Shown here: one piece after another, positions 19,865 through 57,604 of the stretch | Numbering within the stretch: position 1 is the first letter of the stretch | How the letters are laid out: each line of letters starts with the position of its first letter | DNA from: Halobaculum roseum | Lineage (GTDB): Archaea > Halobacteriota > Halobacteria > Halobacteriales > Haloferacaceae | Length of the DNA stretch: 64,000 nucleotides | NCBI RefSeq assembly: GCF_019880245.1 | Contig: NZ_CP082287.1 | Coordinates: 124,001-188,000, forward strand | Reading direction: 5' to 3' | Translations under genes and position numbers: made by a program | Notes under the pieces: model-generated | Database searches by the model: none | What the model saw: only the letters and a program-made list of their open reading frames with translations | What the model was told of the DNA's origin: nothing

Positions 19865-21330
19865 GGCTAAAACCCCGCCCTTCAGGGCGGGGATACAGCC
19901 GACAATTCCTACACAACCCACCGTCGATGGCAAGGCCGGATATCCACGCCAATCGGCATCATTAATAAAACGCTGTTCATAACCAGTTATGAAGCTAGAA
20001 ATGAGTCGGATCGTCCGAACCTTCGAGGCTACCATCACGAACCAGCGACAGGTTCGTGGCGACCTCGACCAGCTCGGGTGGGCCGCCTCAAAACTCTGGA
20101 ACGTCGGTCGCTACTACGCACAACAACGGTGGGATGAAACGGGCGAGATCCCCGATGACGGGGAACTCAAAGCCGAACTCAAGGGCCACGAACGCTACAC
20201 GGACTTGCATTCGCAATCCAGTCAGCGCGTTCTCGAAGAACTCGCTGAAGCGTTCACCGGCTGGTTCGGCAAGCGTCGGAACGGCGACGACCGTGCCCGT
20301 CCGCCCGGCTACCGGAAACATGGAGATTCCCATCCACGTTCAACCGTGTCGTTCAAAACGGCTGGCTTCAAGCACGATGCACAGTTCACCCGCGTTCGCC
20401 TTTCGAAAGGCCGTAACCTCAAAGAACACCGTTCGGACTTCATCCTGTGCGAGTACCAGACGCGCCCGGATGTTGACTTGACCGAGTGGGACATTCAACA
20501 GGTTCGCGCCGTCTACAAACGCGACGAGTGGCGGTTGCAATTCGTCTGTCGCGCCGTCATTGACCCGGAACCGCCGGGTGACGGCGTGGCTGGTGTTGAC
20601 CTCGGGATCTGCAACGTCGCCGCTGTTTCGTTCGGCGGTGAATCGGTGTTGTATCCGGGTGGCGCACTCAAAGAGGACGAATACTACTTCACGAAGAAGA
20701 AAGCCATGTGCGACGATTCTTCCTCCCGTGAAGCCACTCGTCTTGACCGGAAACGAACGGGTCGCCGGACGCACTTCTTGCACGCCCTCTCGAAAGCGAT
20801 CGTGGAGGAGTGTGTCGAACGAGGTGTTGGTACGCTTGTCGTTGGCGACCTCGGGGGCATCCGAGAAGACGACGAGAACGGCGAACCGCGGAATTGGGGC
20901 GACCACGGCAATCTGGACTTGCACAGGTGGGCGTTCGACCGCTTCACGACGCTGCTCGACTACAAGGCGGAAGCCGAGGGCATCGACGTGGAGTTGGTGG
21001 CGGAGCGTGACACCTCGACGTCGTGTTCGGCGTGCGGTCATACGGACGACAATCAGCGCGTTGAACGTGGACTGTACGTGTGTGAGAAATGCGAGACGGT
21101 TGCGAACGCTGACGTGAACGGCGCGGAGAATATTCGACAAAAGGTACTCCCGAGTCTCGCCACGGACGGCGGTGATAGGGATAACGGCTGGTTGGCACAG
21201 CCAGCGGTTCACCTGTTCGACTGTAGTGAGGGCCGTTTCGCCCCACGAGAACAGGTCGGGAACCGCGAACCGTAATATCCCATCGCGGTCGGGAATCCTC
21301 GCCCTTCATGGCGGGGAGGATGTCAAAGCT
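19865..21330 (+). mobile_element. IS200/IS605-type element carrying only tnpB
   Basis: The left part holds a perfect hairpin CCCCGCCC-TTCA-GGGCGGGG (19873-19892). The right end holds a related imperfect hairpin with the same CGCCCTTCA core followed by a GGCGGGGAGGATGTCAAA ending (about 21295-21330). These hairpins are typical IS200/IS605-type ends recognised by TnpA. No tnpA is present, so movement would need a transposase acting in trans. The right end would also encode the guide (omega) RNA expected for TnpB. The exact ends are estimates. Confidence 0.75.
19989..21275 (+). CDS. tnpB: TnpB-family RNA-guided nuclease
   Basis: 428 residues. N-terminal helix-turn-helix and beta-barrel part, RuvC-I motif GVDLGICN (Asp 204), a long helix, RuvC-II region TLVVGDLGGIRED, a zinc finger with CSACGHT and CEKCETV, and RuvC-III motif NADVNGAENI (Asp 375). 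In most TnpB proteins the RuvC-II motif is IVVEDL. Here the Glu position is Gly 286, followed by Asp 287, and Glu 293 is the nearest Glu. It may use a shifted acidic residue or be catalytically weak. ATG 20001 is an alternative start. Confidence 0.9.
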   Translation: MKLEMSRIVRTFEATITNQRQVRGDLDQLGWAASKLWNVGRYYAQQRWDETGEIPDDGELKAELKGHERYTDLHSQSSQRVLEELAEAFTGWFGKRRNGDDRARPPGYRKHGDSHPRSTVSFKTAGFKHDAQFTRVRLSKGRNLKEHRSDFILCEYQTRPDVDLTEWDIQQVRAVYKRDEWRLQFVCRAVIDPEPPGDGVAGVDLGICNVAAVSFGGESVLYPGGALKEDEYYFTKKKAMCDDSSSREATRLDRKRTGRRTHFLHALSKAIVEECVERGVGTLVVGDLGGIREDDENGEPRNWGDHGNLDLHRWAFDRFTTLLDYKAEAEGIDVELVAERDTSTSCSACGHTDDNQRVERGLYVCEKCETVANADVNGAENIRQKVLPSLATDGGDRDNGWLAQPAVHLFDCSEGRFAPREQVGNREP

Positions 21331-47288: not shown

Positions 47289-47921
47289 ATGGCCAGCGGC
47301 GATCTCACGTATGGCCAATCAGTCTTTCTCGTCCTCCGCGAGCTCTTTTCGGAGTATAATCAAACAGACCTCGGTCCGGGAGTCATTACCCTCTCAACAA
47401 TCATCTACTGGGGGTCCTCTACGTTGAGTGCAGGTTTGCTCAAGACAAGTGTTCGTCTCGCGATCGTCGGTCTTGCGCTTGGCTCATTCGGATACGTCTA
47501 TGTTTCAGAACGGCCATTCGGAGTGGACATCTCTTGGACTCCGACGCACATCGTCGACGGAACACGGTCTCCTGACAAAATGTCCGAGACGCGCGGAAAC
47601 GCCTTGATTCAACAGAGTTCTACGCTCATCCACGGTGAAATTCAGTTTTCGAAGTTCACCAATGGGTTCGATTTTCAAGTTGAGACATCGTCTGAGTTGT
47701 CAGCAGAATTCGAGTCAATCCCGCGCCGTGAACACGATTACGATCCGGAGTCAAATCGGCTCAAGTGTCAAAATATGTCTGAGCGTTCGTTCCCAATCAA
47801 ATTAGAAGTCTATCCGCGTTCGACCGCTCGTGAAGTTGGACGCTACCACTCGCTCCAGTTGGTCGACGTTGAAACGGAATCTGTGCTAATGGATGTCGAC
47901 GTTATCGACGTACGTGGGTGA
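47289..47921 (+). CDS. Membrane-anchored hypothetical protein of the Shedu-containing run
   Basis: 210 residues. The N-terminus holds hydrophobic stretches (LGPGVITLSTIIYWGSSTLS and VRLAIVGLALGSFGYVYV), then a soluble beta-rich domain (STLIHGEIQFSKFTNGFDF, then SFPIKLEVYPR). A membrane component in a nuclease operon suggests an effector or sensor at the envelope (inference). The stop overlaps the Shedu start by 4 bp. Confidence 0.62.
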   Translation: MASGDLTYGQSVFLVLRELFSEYNQTDLGPGVITLSTIIYWGSSTLSAGLLKTSVRLAIVGLALGSFGYVYVSERPFGVDISWTPTHIVDGTRSPDKMSETRGNALIQQSSTLIHGEIQFSKFTNGFDFQVETSSELSAEFESIPRREHDYDPESNRLKCQNMSERSFPIKLEVYPRSTAREVGRYHSLQLVDVETESVLMDVDVIDVRG

Positions 47922-49033
47922 CATTGAACATTGAATCGTGTATCTTGGGCAAGGTTTATTTAGTATTAATCATACGCCAATTTGTGAATTTAGATTACAC
48001 ATTCGAAGGAGAATCATACGAATTAGAGATTCCACTTGAAGATAAAAGTCGCTTGACCCACATCGCACAGTTCCCACTTAAGAACGGGCCAGAGACTTTC
48101 AAATTTGTCCACATATTTGGGATCAAAGCCTCAAGTACCGGTAAGAAGATCGTTGTCTTCTGGAAAGCTGAGAAGAGTGGTTACCGGTTAGAGGCCGTTG
48201 AGGAAACACAATTTGAATGCCAACCGGATGAGGTCGAAAAACTGATCTCTCTTCTTGATGAGATTGAGGAACTAACCGATCTTGACCGCGGGACCCACGT
48301 TATTCTCAAAAAGGATTCCCCATCAACGGAGGCCATCATCGGTGCGATAGAGAGCATTACCACCGCAGATTCAGAAGTCGGTAGAGAGTTTGTTATTGAA
48401 CTTATCCGGAGTGTGAGTGAGATCAGCGCTGAATTTGATGATGTCTGGGAGTTCGACGACGAGATCCCCGATGAGGTGGTTGACCTAGAATATCTTATCA
48501 CCCGTGTTCGTGCCCAAAGGGCGTTAGAGGAGTTCCGAGGTTTGATACAGAGAAATGAAGAAGAGAAAGAATACCAAGATTTCCTTGAGAATAATCCATG
48601 GATATTCGGTGGAAGGTACGTAGATAATCGTGAAGAGAGACACCTCACTAGAGATGAGGAGGTTGACTTTTGTTTAGAAACAGTAGACGGGTACTTTGAT
48701 ATCTTTGAAATAAAACGGCCTGGACATACTGTGATGATAGAGGATAGGTCTCATGACAATTTCGCCCCCAGCTCCAAAGTTTCAAAAGCAGTTACCCAGG
48801 TGCAGTCTTATATCGCAGAAATTGAGGCAAGCCGAGATGAAATACTCCGTAGGGATAAAATGGATATTCTCAAGCCCCGTGGGACAGTTGTAATCGGGAG
48901 TGATATATCAGAAGATGAGCGAGAGGGTTTGCGCCTCTATAATAGCTTCCTAAATCAGGTTGATGTGGTGACATATAGTGAAGTTGCCCGAAAGGGTGAG
49001 AGACTAATTGAGCATTACGAAGTTACAACATAA
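47918..49033 (+). CDS. Shedu (SduA/DUF4263) anti-phage nuclease
   Basis: 371 residues from GTG 47918, which overlaps the upstream stop (GTGA). The C-terminal Shedu domain reads EYQDFLENNPWIFGGRYVDN, EVDFCLETVDGYFDIFEIKR (the Asp and E-x-K of a PD-(D/E)XK nuclease) and VTQVQSYIAEIE, ending in the VVTYSEV region. The N-terminal 200 residues form a separate beta-rich and helical sensor part. The gene is much AT-richer than its neighbours (48541-48600 is about one third G+C by hand count), a sign of recent transfer. Confidence 0.87.
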   Translation: MTLNIESCILGKVYLVLIIRQFVNLDYTFEGESYELEIPLEDKSRLTHIAQFPLKNGPETFKFVHIFGIKASSTGKKIVVFWKAEKSGYRLEAVEETQFECQPDEVEKLISLLDEIEELTDLDRGTHVILKKDSPSTEAIIGAIESITTADSEVGREFVIELIRSVSEISAEFDDVWEFDDEIPDEVVDLEYLITRVRAQRALEEFRGLIQRNEEEKEYQDFLENNPWIFGGRYVDNREERHLTRDEEVDFCLETVDGYFDIFEIKRPGHTVMIEDRSHDNFAPSSKVSKAVTQVQSYIAEIEASRDEILRRDKMDILKPRGTVVIGSDISEDEREGLRLYNSFLNQVDVVTYSEVARKGERLIEHYEVTT

Positions 49034-49603: not shown

Positions 49604-49850
49604 GCCGACCACCTCGGTGGCCTTGGAATGTGGTTGTCGTCGGTATCCTTATTCGTCGAGTCGCCGTTTGCAGGCGACGGGCTTGCTTGGTTCATAGCAG
49701 ACGCAGGCACAGCCCGGCTCCGGTGTTCCAACCACCGGGGCGATTCTGAGACAGATTCACCCGAAGAGGCCCGTCTGTGCCTGCCAGATCAATGTACTAC
49801 TAGTCACATAATATTTTTGCCTATGGGCAACTGTTTGGAGATACAGGTAG
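49604..49850. promoter_or_regulatory. 247 bp spacer with two hairpins
   Basis: GTCGCC-GTTTGCA-GGCGAC (49670-49688) and CCGGTG-TTCCAAC-CACCGG (49720-49738) are perfect short stem-loops. The second begins with CCGGTGTTC, a word repeated at 50439 and 53237. An AT-rich box (CACATAATATTTTTGCC, near 49804-49820) precedes the winged-helix gene at 49851. Confidence 0.5.
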
Positions 49851-50078
49851 ATGCCCGCTGGGAAAATGAAGATCACCGATTCAGAGATTCTCGAGTATTT
49901 TCAGAGTTCACAAGATCCCTGTTTCAGTGCGGGAGAGTGCTCGGAAGACTGGGGGATGTCCTCCGAAGGAGCTCGGAAACGGTTGAACGAACTAGTAGAT
50001 CGTGGGGAGTTGGAATCGAAGAAACCTGGCCACAGAACCCGAATTTACTGGTTGTCCGAGGCCGACGTGGAGGCATAG
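49851..50078 (+). CDS. Short winged-helix regulator, convergent with a paralogue
   Basis: 75 residues. ITDSEILEYFQSSQDPCFSA, then CSEDWGMSSEGARKRLNELV and the wing GELESKKPGHRTRIYWLSE. It is a single winged helix without an extra domain. The opposing gene at 50045-50305 has the same order of elements and the two 3' ends overlap by 34 bp, so they are inverted paralogues. Confidence 0.68.
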   Translation: MPAGKMKITDSEILEYFQSSQDPCFSAGECSEDWGMSSEGARKRLNELVDRGELESKKPGHRTRIYWLSEADVEA

Positions 50079-52920: not shown

Positions 52921-53236
52921 CCGCCCGCGCCAGTAAGCGCGGCGTGGATTCCGAGGTGTCACCAGCCGTCCGTCGTGCTCGTCGACATCACCGGATCCCC
53001 ATTCAGCAGAACACACTGGGTCGAATCCAACCTAGTTCACTGGTACCCTATAAAAAAATTTCCCGGATCCCAGTTGTCGCCCATGGTGACTCACCCTGAG
53101 CGTCCTGAGCGACGGCCAACCGCGCTCGTCACCAAATCGTCAGACGGCGCGATGGCTGAGATCCAAAACAGCCCAAGAATTAATATAGGTGGTTGGGTCC
53201 GACTTAATCGGAAACGAAGGACAACACCACGGCTCA
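52921..53236. promoter_or_regulatory. Gene-free stretch with two TATA-like boxes before a hairpin-rich tract
   Basis: CTATAAAAAAATTTCCC near 53048 and TTAATATAGG near 53179 look like archaeal core promoters on the plus strand. The second would start a transcript near 53205, just before the strong hairpins at 53237-53307. No convincing protein starts in the right place, so they may drive a noncoding RNA or the leader of the 53963 gene. Confidence 0.4.
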
Positions 53237-53343
53237 CCGGTGTTCTACAGAACAGCGGAGGAAGGGTTCGCCCTTCCTCACAACGGCTGGACACCCTGTT
53301 CTGTAGAGCCCGGGATAATAGAGTTTGCCCCCGGTCGAGGAGT
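53237..53343 (+). ncRNA. Candidate structured RNA, module 1
   Basis: Outer stem TCTACAGAACAG (53244-53255) pairs perfectly with CTGTTCTGTAGA (53296-53307). Inside is GAGGAAGGG-TTCG-CCCTTCCTC (53258-53279), a perfect 9 bp stem with a TTCG tetraloop. AGTTTGCCCCCG follows at 53332-53343. Perfect nested stems with a stable tetraloop suggest an RNA. A DNA-level role such as a replication origin hairpin is the alternative. Confidence 0.45.
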
Positions 53344-53375
53344 GGAATCGCTACCACTCACGCTCGACAGCATTC

Positions 53376-53412
53376 CCCGAGCAGCTGCAGCGCTGTCCAG
53401 CAGCTGCTCGGG
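53376..53412. repeat. Perfect 13 bp inverted repeat
   Basis: CCCGAGCAGCTGC (53376-53388) and GCAGCTGCTCGGG (53400-53412) are exact complements around an 11-base spacer. Each arm contains GCAGCTGC, itself a palindrome, so the site can bind dimers in several registers. It lies between the two hairpin modules. Confidence 0.65.
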
Positions 53413-53962
53413 CACCGAAACCGCACCATGCACGACACACCACACATCGCGCCGTCCGCCCCACGGCGACTGGCTAGTGTCCCGGTGCCACCCCGATCTC
53501 ATCGGCACCCCAGTAGTGGCGCGTTCGTCATGCGTGCGTCAGACAAATCGGCCGATGACTCGGACCCCACCGGCGCGATCGGCGGTAGTGATATTACTGG
53601 TGAACGGAACCGGTTCGAACAGACACCAAGACAGGCGCTACCTGAATGCAGTTCGACCAGGGAGAAAGGGAGGTCGGGTCCTCCCTACCCTAGGCCAACG
53701 ACCTCCTCCTTGATCGGACCACATGAAATAGTTTGCCCCCGACCAGCGACGGTGCTGTGCAGCGCGGTTGCGTGCCCAGTCACGCGTAATCGTCGGTCTC
53801 GGTGCCCAATCCGCCTAGTCACGAGTATCGCTGTCTCTCCGTCGCGCTCTACATAGCTCGCTCGATGCTCTGCACGCCTCACCCCACGGTGTTCGCCCAC
53901 TTGTTACCAGATGGACTCCCCCTTGCGACCACTCGTTGGCAGTCACTCAGGGGTGTGGGGCA
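53413..53962. repeat. Second hairpin module and leader of the 53963 gene
   Basis: AGGGAGG-TCGGGT-CCTCCCT (about 53668-53687) is a stem-loop similar in position to the GAGGAAGGG hairpin of module 1, and is again followed by AGTTTGCCCCCG (53730-53741; first copy 53332-53343, about 398 bp earlier). GAACCGGTTC (about 53608) is a perfect palindrome. No protein gene is supported. The repeat of hairpin plus AGTTTGCCCCCG suggests tandem functional modules. Confidence 0.45.
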
Positions 53963-56900
53963 GTGACGGCGTACGCGCTCATCGAGTGTCCGCAGTGTCA
54001 CGAGTTGTTCATCGTCGAGGACTCGGACAAAGTTACGATCACATGCCGCCAGTGCCAGCACACTCGCCTCCACCGGAACATCCGGTACACCAAGACAGGA
54101 TCAGTGGCCGAACTCCGCGAGATTCGCTCTCGACTCAACGCGGATCGAGCTGGGGAGGCGCACCCCGACCAGACTGTCGCCGAGCAGGGTAACCAGATCT
54201 ACTGGGCGCCGTCGATCAGCGACGGCTGGTCACCCGAGTACGAGGACGCCTTCCAAACGCAGGCAGAGCAGTTGGCGGAGCGCCAGCGGACGACACAGCG
54301 TGAGGCGTTCGCTGACCAGGTTGAATTCGGCGTCGACGCACCCGCGCCGATCCGCCCGGATGAAGACCTTCCAGCCCGCTCGCCCGTCAACGAGGCGAAC
54401 GCGATCGAGGTCGAGGACGTCTCCGACTTGCCGGCAGTCACCGACGAAACTGTCCTCGAATTCGAGACTACAGGCCAGACATTCGTCGACGGCGGCCAAC
54501 AGCCGCTTGTAGCAGAGGTCACGGGGCTCGAACCCACGGTGACTGAGGCCGACCGACTGCTCGTAGCGTTGCTGCCGGCGACGATCCGCGGCATCGCCTA
54601 TTTCGCTCACCGTCGCAAGTTCACCGCACGCACAGCTCACCAGCTGGCACACGTCCTCATTCACGAACGCGGGATCGTGGCTGGCAACGGCGCGTGGGCG
54701 CACGCTGCCGCGAAATACGCGTTGATCTACCAGGATGGCCCTGCAGTCGAGGGTGTTGGCGAAACGTGGTCGGACCGTATTGACGCGGTCCGCCGACGCG
54801 CTGGACTCTCCTTGACTGCAGACGGCTCCATCTCGAAAGCCGATGCCGAACGGCAGGTAACACGGGCTATGCTGCTTCGAACGCTCACCGCATTCGCGAG
54901 CGGACAAGATGCTGCCCGAGAGGGCTTTGGTCGCGAGGATCTCATCAGGTCCGTCGTGCCGGCGCTTGCGCTTCGCAAGCGGCCGGCCCGCCTCAGGGTG
55001 ACGTTGGACCGCCGCGAGTGGCTGGATGCGCTCTCCGGCGACGACACGCGCCGTATCGAGCGTCTCCTCGGCGTGCTCGAGGTGCTCTCGATCGTCGTCG
55101 ACGTCTGCATCAGTGTCCCTGGTGGGCTTGATGGGAAGCTGTTCGGCGAACTTGAGGAGGCGCTCCCTGTGTGGACCGACGAACGTCTTACTGAAACCCG
55201 CGACCGGTTCCACTCCCGCAGCGTGGACGGCCACGATCGACTGGCTCCCCTCGAAGCGTATCGAGCGGCTCGCAAGTACGCCGGCCGTGGGTCCACGAAG
55301 AAGTACAGTGTCCTTGCAGCACTCTCTCAGGACGATCTCCAGCGTGCGAGTGCTGTCGTCGACACTGGTGTGTGTCTCGCTGCAGTCGGCTCTGTGTACG
55401 GCTTCCTGGCCGAGCTCGCTGACGCTGGATTGGCTGAACAGGTCGGACAAAAGTGGCGCTTGACGCCACTGGGCGCTGCTGCAGCGGAGTTGCTGAACGA
55501 CGCCCTCGTGTTGGTCCATCCTGAGCAGCAGGCAAACTGGACCGGTCTTGCTACCCCCTGCAATAGCACCAACAAGTGTAGTGCTCAGCGCCAGCCGTCC
55601 CACGGGGAGGGGGAGACCGCCGGGGAGACCGACACCGCCGACCGCAACGACCGCCTGCCGCCGACCGCCCGGTCGCTCGACCGCGACATCGCCCGCGTCA
55701 AGCCGCCACAAGGCGCAACGCACCTGCAGTACTTCGGCGAGTACGATACCGACCACCGCCGCTACAGCTCGGAGTTCCAGCACCGGGTCCTCCGCTCGTT
55801 GGCCCAAGACGCTGTTGTGACCTGTGTCGATACTCCTACCGAGGAGCTGTATCCTGCTCCCGAATCCGTCGACGGTGACCTCGAGGACGGTGACGATCTC
55901 GGCGCGGGGAAGGTGACACAGGCGAACTTCGACGCAAAGACGGCGACACTCGTTGCACCGCTGCAGTGGGGCGGCTCTGACTCCATGCTCACGCGGCTGG
56001 GCCGGATGCTGTTCGACCCGCATCTCTGGGAACAGATGTCGATGGACGAGCGGATCGGCGACGACCTGGGGAAGATCCCGCTTGATGGGCTCGACGTCGA
56101 CGACGATGTCGAGGGCTACCTATACGGCCACCAGTTCGGCTGGCTCGCGACCGACGACGATCACCCGGCTGTCGACCCGGATAAAACGGTGCGTTCGAAC
56201 TGGGTTGACCGAGTTCGCGGCCGGTGCGCACACCTGCTCAAGCTGCTGGCCGACGACGAGACGTACCAGAACGCCGAGCAGGGGAAGGAGCTGAAAGAAC
56301 TCGGCCAGGGCATCCTCACGATGGGCACGAAGCTGCTGCACGCAGTCGGGATCGAGGTGGTGTTCCCGATACGCGTCCCGAACGTCGGCAACCTGCTCCG
56401 GAATCCGAGCGCGCTGGCGGACTTCAGCGACTTCTTCCGCTACACCGTACCCAAGCATTTTGCCTTCGGGCACCACGCGGCCCACCGACACACAGTCGAG
56501 ACGGACGGCGAGCGGCTGAAACACCGCCTGTCGCTGGAGATGGATGAGACTGACCGCCACGCTGAGCCGACAGCGCGGTGGGTCATCCAGGGCGGCTCTG
56601 CGGACCCAACCGCGGCCAGCGCCGACGACCTCCGGCCGTTCGTCGAGGACGCACTCGGCGCGGTCAAGCCCCGCGAGGCGGTCGCAGAGGGCGCTGAGGA
56701 CGCCCCAGTCATCGACATCAGTGTCACCTCAGCGTCGACGTACCGCTGGACGCGAGACTACCTCGAGCGCGAGCTCGCTGAGAAGGGCTGGGAAGACCTA
56801 CGCGGCGATCGCTCTCAGTGGGTGAACCCCGACTCAGACGATATCGAGCGCCTTGCGAGAGTGCTGGTCGCGATGACTGCCCGAGGGGAGGCCTGGCGGA

Positions 56901-57604
56901 CATCGGGCCTCGCGATCGCCGAAGCGGTCCACTCACTGCCCGCTCGCGAAGGGACCGAACAGCTGACCACTCGCGATATCGAATTCGCGCTCTCGCAGAT
57001 CTCTCCCGAGCACGTCCTCCCGACGCTTCCACCGTCGGCGGGCAAGTGTCTTCAGAAGCTGCTCGCTGCGGACGAGCCACTGCGAGCACGCGAACTGTAC
57101 GAGGAGCGTGTGGGCATCTCTGAATCGATGTGGCGAACCATTCGCGAGGACCTCGAAGGTCTGCAGTTCGTGACTCGCGAAGATGACGGGCTCTTGGTCG
57201 CGACCGTGTCTCCCTGGTGGAGTAGCCGTGATGGCGGCGTTCGAACGCTCGACGCAGAAGAAGAGCTGTGGATGGCGGCGATGCACGAGGATGGACACGT
57301 CAACTGGGGTGCGATGGTGCTCCTCGACGACGCCGATCTACTCCACGATCCCGACGGGGTGTGCGGTGCCGACGACTGGCAGCGCCCACCGAAAGACATC
57401 GACATCGACGATCTCCGATCGCTCGACCGCCGCCTGGGAGCATGGGCGCCGGTCATCGCGACGCTCGTCGACGAGGCTCCCGACCAGGAGACCACGACGG
57501 TCGCGAGAGTCGGACGGCTACCCGCTGGACTCGAAAACCGCCAGACTGCATTCGTTAGAGGGTCGAGTAACATCGCTTCAGATGGCAGTTGGGGGGTTGA
57601 GTAA
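53963..57604 (+). CDS. Large DUF5817-type zinc ribbon protein, possible replicon protein
   Basis: 1213 residues from GTG 53963 (MTAYALIECPQC; a start 9 codons earlier is less typical). The N-terminal zinc ribbon has Cys 9, 12, 28 and 31, as in DUF5817. A long middle section includes TIRGIAYFAHRRKFTARTAH, winged-helix-like segments (SVYGFLAELADAGLAEQVGQ) and a conserved-looking block around HQFGWLATDDDHPAVDPDKT. The C-terminus has another winged helix (LRARELYEERVGISESMWRT). No ATPase or nuclease motif is visible. Hairpin modules precede it and short direct repeats follow it, a layout expected for a replication initiator (inference). Confidence 0.7.
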   Translation: MTAYALIECPQCHELFIVEDSDKVTITCRQCQHTRLHRNIRYTKTGSVAELREIRSRLNADRAGEAHPDQTVAEQGNQIYWAPSISDGWSPEYEDAFQTQAEQLAERQRTTQREAFADQVEFGVDAPAPIRPDEDLPARSPVNEANAIEVEDVSDLPAVTDETVLEFETTGQTFVDGGQQPLVAEVTGLEPTVTEADRLLVALLPATIRGIAYFAHRRKFTARTAHQLAHVLIHERGIVAGNGAWAHAAAKYALIYQDGPAVEGVGETWSDRIDAVRRRAGLSLTADGSISKADAERQVTRAMLLRTLTAFASGQDAAREGFGREDLIRSVVPALALRKRPARLRVTLDRREWLDALSGDDTRRIERLLGVLEVLSIVVDVCISVPGGLDGKLFGELEEALPVWTDERLTETRDRFHSRSVDGHDRLAPLEAYRAARKYAGRGSTKKYSVLAALSQDDLQRASAVVDTGVCLAAVGSVYGFLAELADAGLAEQVGQKWRLTPLGAAAAELLNDALVLVHPEQQANWTGLATPCNSTNKCSAQRQPSHGEGETAGETDTADRNDRLPPTARSLDRDIARVKPPQGATHLQYFGEYDTDHRRYSSEFQHRVLRSLAQDAVVTCVDTPTEELYPAPESVDGDLEDGDDLGAGKVTQANFDAKTATLVAPLQWGGSDSMLTRLGRMLFDPHLWEQMSMDERIGDDLGKIPLDGLDVDDDVEGYLYGHQFGWLATDDDHPAVDPDKTVRSNWVDRVRGRCAHLLKLLADDETYQNAEQGKELKELGQGILTMGTKLLHAVGIEVVFPIRVPNVGNLLRNPSALADFSDFFRYTVPKHFAFGHHAAHRHTVETDGERLKHRLSLEMDETDRHAEPTARWVIQGGSADPTAASADDLRPFVEDALGAVKPREAVAEGAEDAPVIDISVTSASTYRWTRDYLERELAEKGWEDLRGDRSQWVNPDSDDIERLARVLVAMTARGEAWRTSGLAIAEAVHSLPAREGTEQLTTRDIEFALSQISPEHVLPTLPPSAGKCLQKLLAADEPLRARELYEERVGISESMWRTIREDLEGLQFVTREDDGLLVATVSPWWSSRDGGVRTLDAEEELWMAAMHEDGHVNWGAMVLLDDADLLHDPDGVCGADDWQRPPKDIDIDDLRSLDRRLGAWAPVIATLVDEAPDQETTTVARVGRLPAGLENRQTAFVRGSSNIASDGSWGVE

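Follow-up and report, generated by a model that had tools for sequence, protein, structure and literature searches.

A counter-transcript RNA may control the replication initiator gene of a 240 kb Halobaculum replicon. In the window examined here (a 64,000-nucleotide part of that replicon), a strongly folded nested hairpin precedes the gene for a RepH-type initiator, and a haloarchaeal promoter motif on the opposite strand lies directly 3ʹ of this hairpin. Transcription from this minus-strand promoter probably yields a small antisense RNA, which would restrain repH. We assign a probability of about 0.62 to the reading that this counter-transcript limits RepH synthesis and sets plasmid copy number. 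The motifs, their recurrence and their spacing come from sequence, from which we infer both transcripts, their pairing, the resulting inhibition and the copy-number effect.

The odds lean only slightly towards a broader claim, namely that the RepH replicons of haloarchaeal plasmids are widely run by counter-transcript RNAs of one shared layout (operator dyad, sense TATA box, long hairpin, opposing promoter and a recognition segment at fixed spacing). Such RNAs would represent an archaeal control class that arose independently of the bacterial ones. If a recurring RNA switch does precede RepH genes, it would explain incompatibility among RepH plasmids, offer vector design a means to adjust copy number, and establish antisense control of replication in Archaea. 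The open-access literature yielded no report that RepH, including that of pNRC100, is under antisense control, and no description of how RepH-type haloarchaeal plasmids set their copy number and exclude relatives (the 1993 papers on pNRC100 and pHH1 lay outside this search). The main text of a paper on antisense RNAs in H. salinarum does not mention repH.

A nested hairpin upstream of a RepH gene

A reading of the sequence alone (hereafter the sequence-only reading) had placed a replicon-type protein gene after the hairpin, and tblastn comparisons identify this gene as RepH-type (Table 1). Several of the matching plasmids carry RepH annotations, E values against annotated RepH initiators reach 5e-32, and an alignment of 13 sequences contains approximately 90 invariant columns. 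Peptide scans for RepH that used the window protein as a single query gave no matches. The start codon is probably a GTG near position 53964. The nearest relative of the upstream tract resides on a 93.7-kb H. rubrum plasmid (79% identity across 900 bp), whose RepH protein is 91% identical to that of the window. On both plasmids, a PadR-family gene and a winged helix-turn-helix (wHTH) gene lie upstream of the hairpin tract.

The tract between 52920 and 53936 was described earlier as gene-free, and it contains no gene that stands up to comparison. An open reading frame at 52975-53856 was rejected because the homologous H. rubrum sequence is not open, with 5-7 stop codons in each frame. The nested perfect stems and the TTCG loop are likewise present as described. 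The outer stem comprises 12 perfect base pairs (53244-53255 with 53296-53307) and is extended by a U.G pair, a G-C pair, a bulged base and four more pairs to positions 53237 and 53313. The inner stem has 9 base pairs (53258-53266 with 53271-53279). The RNA fold of 53237-53314 has a predicted energy of -45.1 kcal/mol, far below the mean of -25.0 kcal/mol for shuffled sequences (z -6.3), and none of 200 shuffles folded as stably; the longer stretch 53180-53420 gave a z of -6.0. The originally proposed interval of 53237-53343 needs correction, as it runs roughly 30 nucleotides past the end of the hairpin at 53313.

Table 1. Positions of the RepH gene and of the upstream elements in the window
Feature	Position	Strand	Details
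CGTCAGACG dyad, putative operator upstream of the sense promoter	53138..53146		CGTC[AT]GACG enrichment
Probable sense (repH leader) TATA box TTAATATA	53180..53187	+	spacing as in other lineages; sense RNA start predicted near 53208
Predicted counter-transcript RNA, ~85 nt	53208..53292	-	inferred from promoter
Nested hairpin of sense leader	53237..53313	+	outer arms 53237-53255 / 53296-53313; inner stem-loop 53258-53279 (TTCG); fold z -6.3
CTGGACACC segment (YUNR-like), complement of predicted antisense 5ʹ end	53287..53295	+	YTGGNNACY at fixed promoter spacing
Predicted antisense promoter	53314..53332	-	motif GGGGCAAACTCTATTAT at 53331-53315; BRE CAAAC 53327-53323 and TATA TATTAT 53320-53315; start predicted near 53292
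Downstream leader hairpin (GTCGAG-GAGTGG / CCACTC-ACG-CTCGAC)	53334..53368	+	z -3.4; stems conserved in H. rubrum
13-bp perfect hairpin	53376..53412	+	z -4.2; pairing lost in H. rubrum
Second copy of the layout	53537..53745		CGTCAGACA 53537-53545; TATA-like ATATTA near 53590; hairpin ~53650-53717; minus-strand promoter GGGGCAAACTATTTCAT 53740-53724
RepH-type plasmid replication initiator	53936..57604	+	tblastn, 26 haloarchaeal plasmids

A homologue of the hairpin at the DNA level was recovered only from the H. rubrum plasmid; the searches comprised blastn against plasmids, a DNA comparison with 391 genomes of the class, in which two other hits were weak, and a pattern scan of viral contigs. 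By manual count, 15 of the 18 outer pairs are unchanged there, two have become G.U pairs and one is lost, and the inner stem is re-registered around a bulged A. RNAalifold places 33 pairs in both sequences, comprising 29 invariant pairs, three with one-sided changes and one compensatory pair. Reliance on one direct homologue, in which one pair is lost and one is compensatory, weighs against the antisense reading. Identity to H. rubrum falls to 55% in 53278-53297, which surrounds the CTGGACACC segment and is the least conserved part of the hairpin, versus 90 and 100% in the flanking arms. Rfam covariance models revealed nothing relevant to the hairpin in the whole window, and a search of the tract and 17 related loci with a lax threshold gave no match at the gathering score (the best chance hit in the tract had an E value of 0.24). 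Of the two hairpins further downstream, the 13-bp example is probably not essential because H. rubrum has lost its pairing, and it serves as a caution that not all perfect inverted repeats in this region are functional.

Two sequences cannot prove an RNA structure, and therefore other RepH loci were examined. Compensatory base-pair changes were found in seven of the eight lineages that have multiple members (A, B, C, E, F, G and H), and lineage D is almost invariant. The covariation analysis of related plasmids that had been proposed thus yields compensatory changes in other RepH lineages, but only a single such pair in the lineage of the window.

Promoter motifs and candidate recognition segments at RepH loci

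The minus-strand motif beyond the hairpin matches the haloarchaeal promoter consensus, which consists of a CGAAA BRE and a TTWT TATA element (PMC4983044). With a matrix trained on other lineages, it has the top score among approximately 2800 positions on both strands. Scores of 9.5 bits or more occur at only 13 positions on the two strands of the 64-kb window, and a promoter of that strength stands next to a hairpin of z -4 or lower in just two cases: at the hairpin locus and at position 49806. At this other place, a second strong hairpin and a minus-strand promoter-like site, ACATAATATTTTTGCC (13.6 bits), occupy 49690-49822. The element is 96% identical in the H. rubrum plasmid, and its promoter-like site may also be the plus-strand promoter of a small wHTH gene at 49851.

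RepH upstream regions were gathered from the family and the class, from plasmid records and from genome contigs, and form approximately 12 lineages with little mutual similarity. A sense TATA box, a strong hairpin, an opposing promoter and then repH occur in this order in approximately 12 such unrelated lineages, including that of pNRC100. Most lineages have a long stem that encloses one or two hairpins and, shortly after it, an A/T-rich stretch and GTTTGCC, GTTACCCC, CTTTCGCCC or CTTTCCCCC; when read on the minus strand, these sequences resemble a haloarchaeal promoter. For ten lineages, promoters were scored over approximately 2800 positions on both strands using a matrix from whose training the tested lineage had been left out. 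The opposing promoter ranked first in all members of seven of the ten (A, B, F, G, H, I and J); in C, D and E it took first or second place for almost every member. At two loci that were not used for training, from Halosimplex (L138) and Saliphagus (L142), it was the top match and had a hairpin adjacent to it. The published consensus CGAAA/TTWT alone gives a combined p of approximately 1e-10 across 12 lineages, although visual inspection had picked out the sites beforehand, which makes the p-values optimistic. No such layout was seen at RepH loci of the Halorubrum clade or at some Halococcus loci.

Transcription from the opposing promoter is predicted to begin inside the hairpin, at approximately 53292. 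The resulting RNA is predicted to fold into the inner stem-loop and weaker hairpins, and this fold is only modestly stable on its own (z -1.6 to -1.8). Since the start site was predicted from the TATA element, the CTGGACACC segment is the complement of the predicted antisense 5ʹ end. In six lineages (A, C, D, F, H and J), among them that of the window, the consensus YTGGNNACY sits 29-30 nucleotides away from the opposing promoter, whereas 0.18 lineages would be expected; it is absent from the remaining lineages and from H. rubrum. In bacterial plasmid antisense RNAs, recognition relies on YUNR loops and on single-stranded 5ʹ tails (PMC4485353).

The TATA-like sequence that had been noted before the hairpin, TTAATATA, is a plausible convergent sense promoter. 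In other lineages, sense TATA boxes (TTTAAGT, TTTAATA) lie approximately 95-165 nucleotides upstream of the opposing promoter, and TTAATATA fits this spacing, but its H. rubrum counterpart (TTATTAC) preserves it only loosely. The sequence TATAAAAA at 53048 is better conserved in H. rubrum than the box at 53180, and is a possible sense promoter; it was not retained as the first choice because the 53180 box better fits the spacing in other lineages. A plus-strand AGCTAAGGA-like box, which recurs in several lineages at the presumed sense 5ʹ end, has no counterpart in the window. Upstream of the sense promoter, the dyad CGTC[AT]GACG may be an operator: 12 copies occur in 41 RepH upstream regions versus 0.4 expected, and the window as a whole has a single copy (2.4 expected by chance). 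The same dyad, as CGTCTGACG, directly precedes the TATA box of the constitutive transcript T7 of phage phiH (L146, 2154 and upstream).

A proposed antisense circuit and its alternatives

In the circuit that we favour, the sense promoter would produce a repH leader that folds into the nested hairpin, and the convergent promoter would produce a short counter-transcript complementary to the leader back towards the leader 5ʹ end. The antisense 5ʹ end would pair first with the exposed CTGGACACC segment and then form a duplex, and this duplex would cause leader cleavage or an early stop to transcription, such that less RepH is made. A negative feedback loop would be closed if the amount of antisense RNA tracks plasmid copy number, and divergence of the recognition segment would decide plasmid compatibility. 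At approximately 650 nucleotides, the hairpin is further from repH than usual, and a weaker second module resides nearer the gene. For these reasons, the hairpin copy at 53237-53313 may not be the main control module. The promoter of the second module is identical to its H. rubrum counterpart at 22 of 23 positions. The fold of this module is weak in the window (z -1.8), and in H. rubrum it forms a long stem around CCGACCAAGAAG/CTTCTTGGTCGG that encloses a hairpin.

The main rival explanation, which the sequence-only reading had also raised in the form of a DNA hairpin used in replication and which we regard as rather unlikely, is that the inverted repeat acts in DNA as an origin, where it is extruded or read as a single strand and serves as an assembly site for RepH or host factors, as proposed for pRN1. 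The pRN plasmids need a 100-bp stem-loop whose structure is conserved and whose sequence is not (PMC4234260), RepH loci likewise keep pairing while sequence changes, and pNRC100 requires the region 5ʹ of repH. A DNA origin would nevertheless leave unexplained both the promoter on one strand just past the hairpin and the fixed 29-30 nucleotide spacing of YTGGNNACY. Furthermore, several changes create G.U pairs, which are good in RNA and mismatches in DNA, and the stem-loop of pRN1 is found 3ʹ of the replication gene, whereas the hairpin described here lies 5ʹ of repH.

The recurrent opposing promoter would also be left unexplained if no antisense RNA existed and the hairpin acted only within a structured sense leader that sets the translation or stability of repH mRNA, or within a stable plus-strand small RNA. 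The very stable fold and a sense TATA box at a plausible distance speak for this explanation, but H. rubrum keeps the sense TATA less well than the minus-strand TATA, and we consider it decidedly improbable. The sequence-only reading had proposed a stable small RNA, but a leftward-reading antisense RNA is the likelier regulator because the minus-strand promoter lies directly 3ʹ of the hairpin. Its further suggestion of a copy-number control RNA is favoured by the comparative evidence, although through the antisense strand, whose promoter it had missed. It is very improbable that the repeats are instead dyads to which proteins bind, such as the PadR or winged-helix products of the genes immediately upstream, with the hairpin as a by-product. 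TTCTACAGAA is a near palindrome, genes for such proteins accompany the tract in both plasmids, and CGTCWGACG is operator-like. However, arm sequences differ entirely among lineages while pairing persists, which indicates a structure rather than a binding site.

Comparable systems and neighbouring elements

The closest functional parallels are the bacterial counter-transcript systems pMV158 RNAII, pIP501 RNAIII and R1 CopA, in which, as found here in the form of a sequence motif, an antisense promoter resides within the rep leader and faces away from the gene. Hairpins, and a fast-diverging specificity segment that is putative at the RepH locus, are further common features, and the YUNR-type loop or 5ʹ-tail recognition of the bacterial systems (PMC4485353) may have a counterpart at the RepH locus. 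In contrast, the RepH locus has archaeal BRE/TATA promoters, a different initiator family, an antisense RNA that is predicted, and a sense structure with one long stem that encloses one or two hairpins.

Within haloarchaea, the T(ant) RNA of the Halobacterium phage phiH was the first antisense RNA described (PMC6210493). In the phage genome (MK002701), the start annotated for the minus-strand T(ant) lies 150 bp downstream of where the convergent T1 begins, and the leader between the two folds strongly. Convergent antisense transcription has a haloarchaeal precedent in phiH T(ant), and at both loci haloarchaeal promoters or promoter motifs converge approximately 150 bp apart around a folded leader. 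This likeness is one of layout; the phage element sits after repH and before an early lytic operon, and not in front of repH.

For its replication, pNRC100 depends on repH and on the region 5ʹ of that gene (PMC1906834, citing the minimal origin of Ng and DasSarma, 1993). The hairpin and opposing promoter of pNRC100 lie approximately 140 nucleotides before its RepH gene, which we assume to be the gene mapped in 1993. The two plasmids share the gene type and the upstream layout, but their hairpin sequences differ. The pRN1 stem-loop resembles the present hairpin in its conserved structure, unconserved sequence and link to a plasmid Rep gene, but it belongs to a Sulfolobus plasmid with another Rep family and acts in DNA.

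A RepH-proximal hairpin (AACGACAATCCGGG..CCCGGATGTCGTT; L097/L125 and L040) is common to lineages that have different antisense modules, which suggests that the control region has been exchanged as a module between RepH lineages. In the Halorubrum clade (L042-L060), a conserved array of three hairpins with covarying stems (CCGGCCGcGGTG..CACCcGGCCGG, GGTTCTGTG..CACAGAACC and TGCGGGGCTTAAGCCCTGCG) lies approximately 700-1490 nucleotides upstream of repH, ahead of a CxxC-encoding stretch and RepH, and has no Rfam match. This array was rejected as a representative of the same element, given that it is far upstream, in another context and without an opposing promoter. Elsewhere in the window, 47918-49033 encodes a protein with an SduA C-terminal domain (Shedu defence; Pfam PF14082, E 5e-21), and the sense overlapping transcript RNA sot0042 (RF02656) is found at 21142-21317 (E 5.5e-36).
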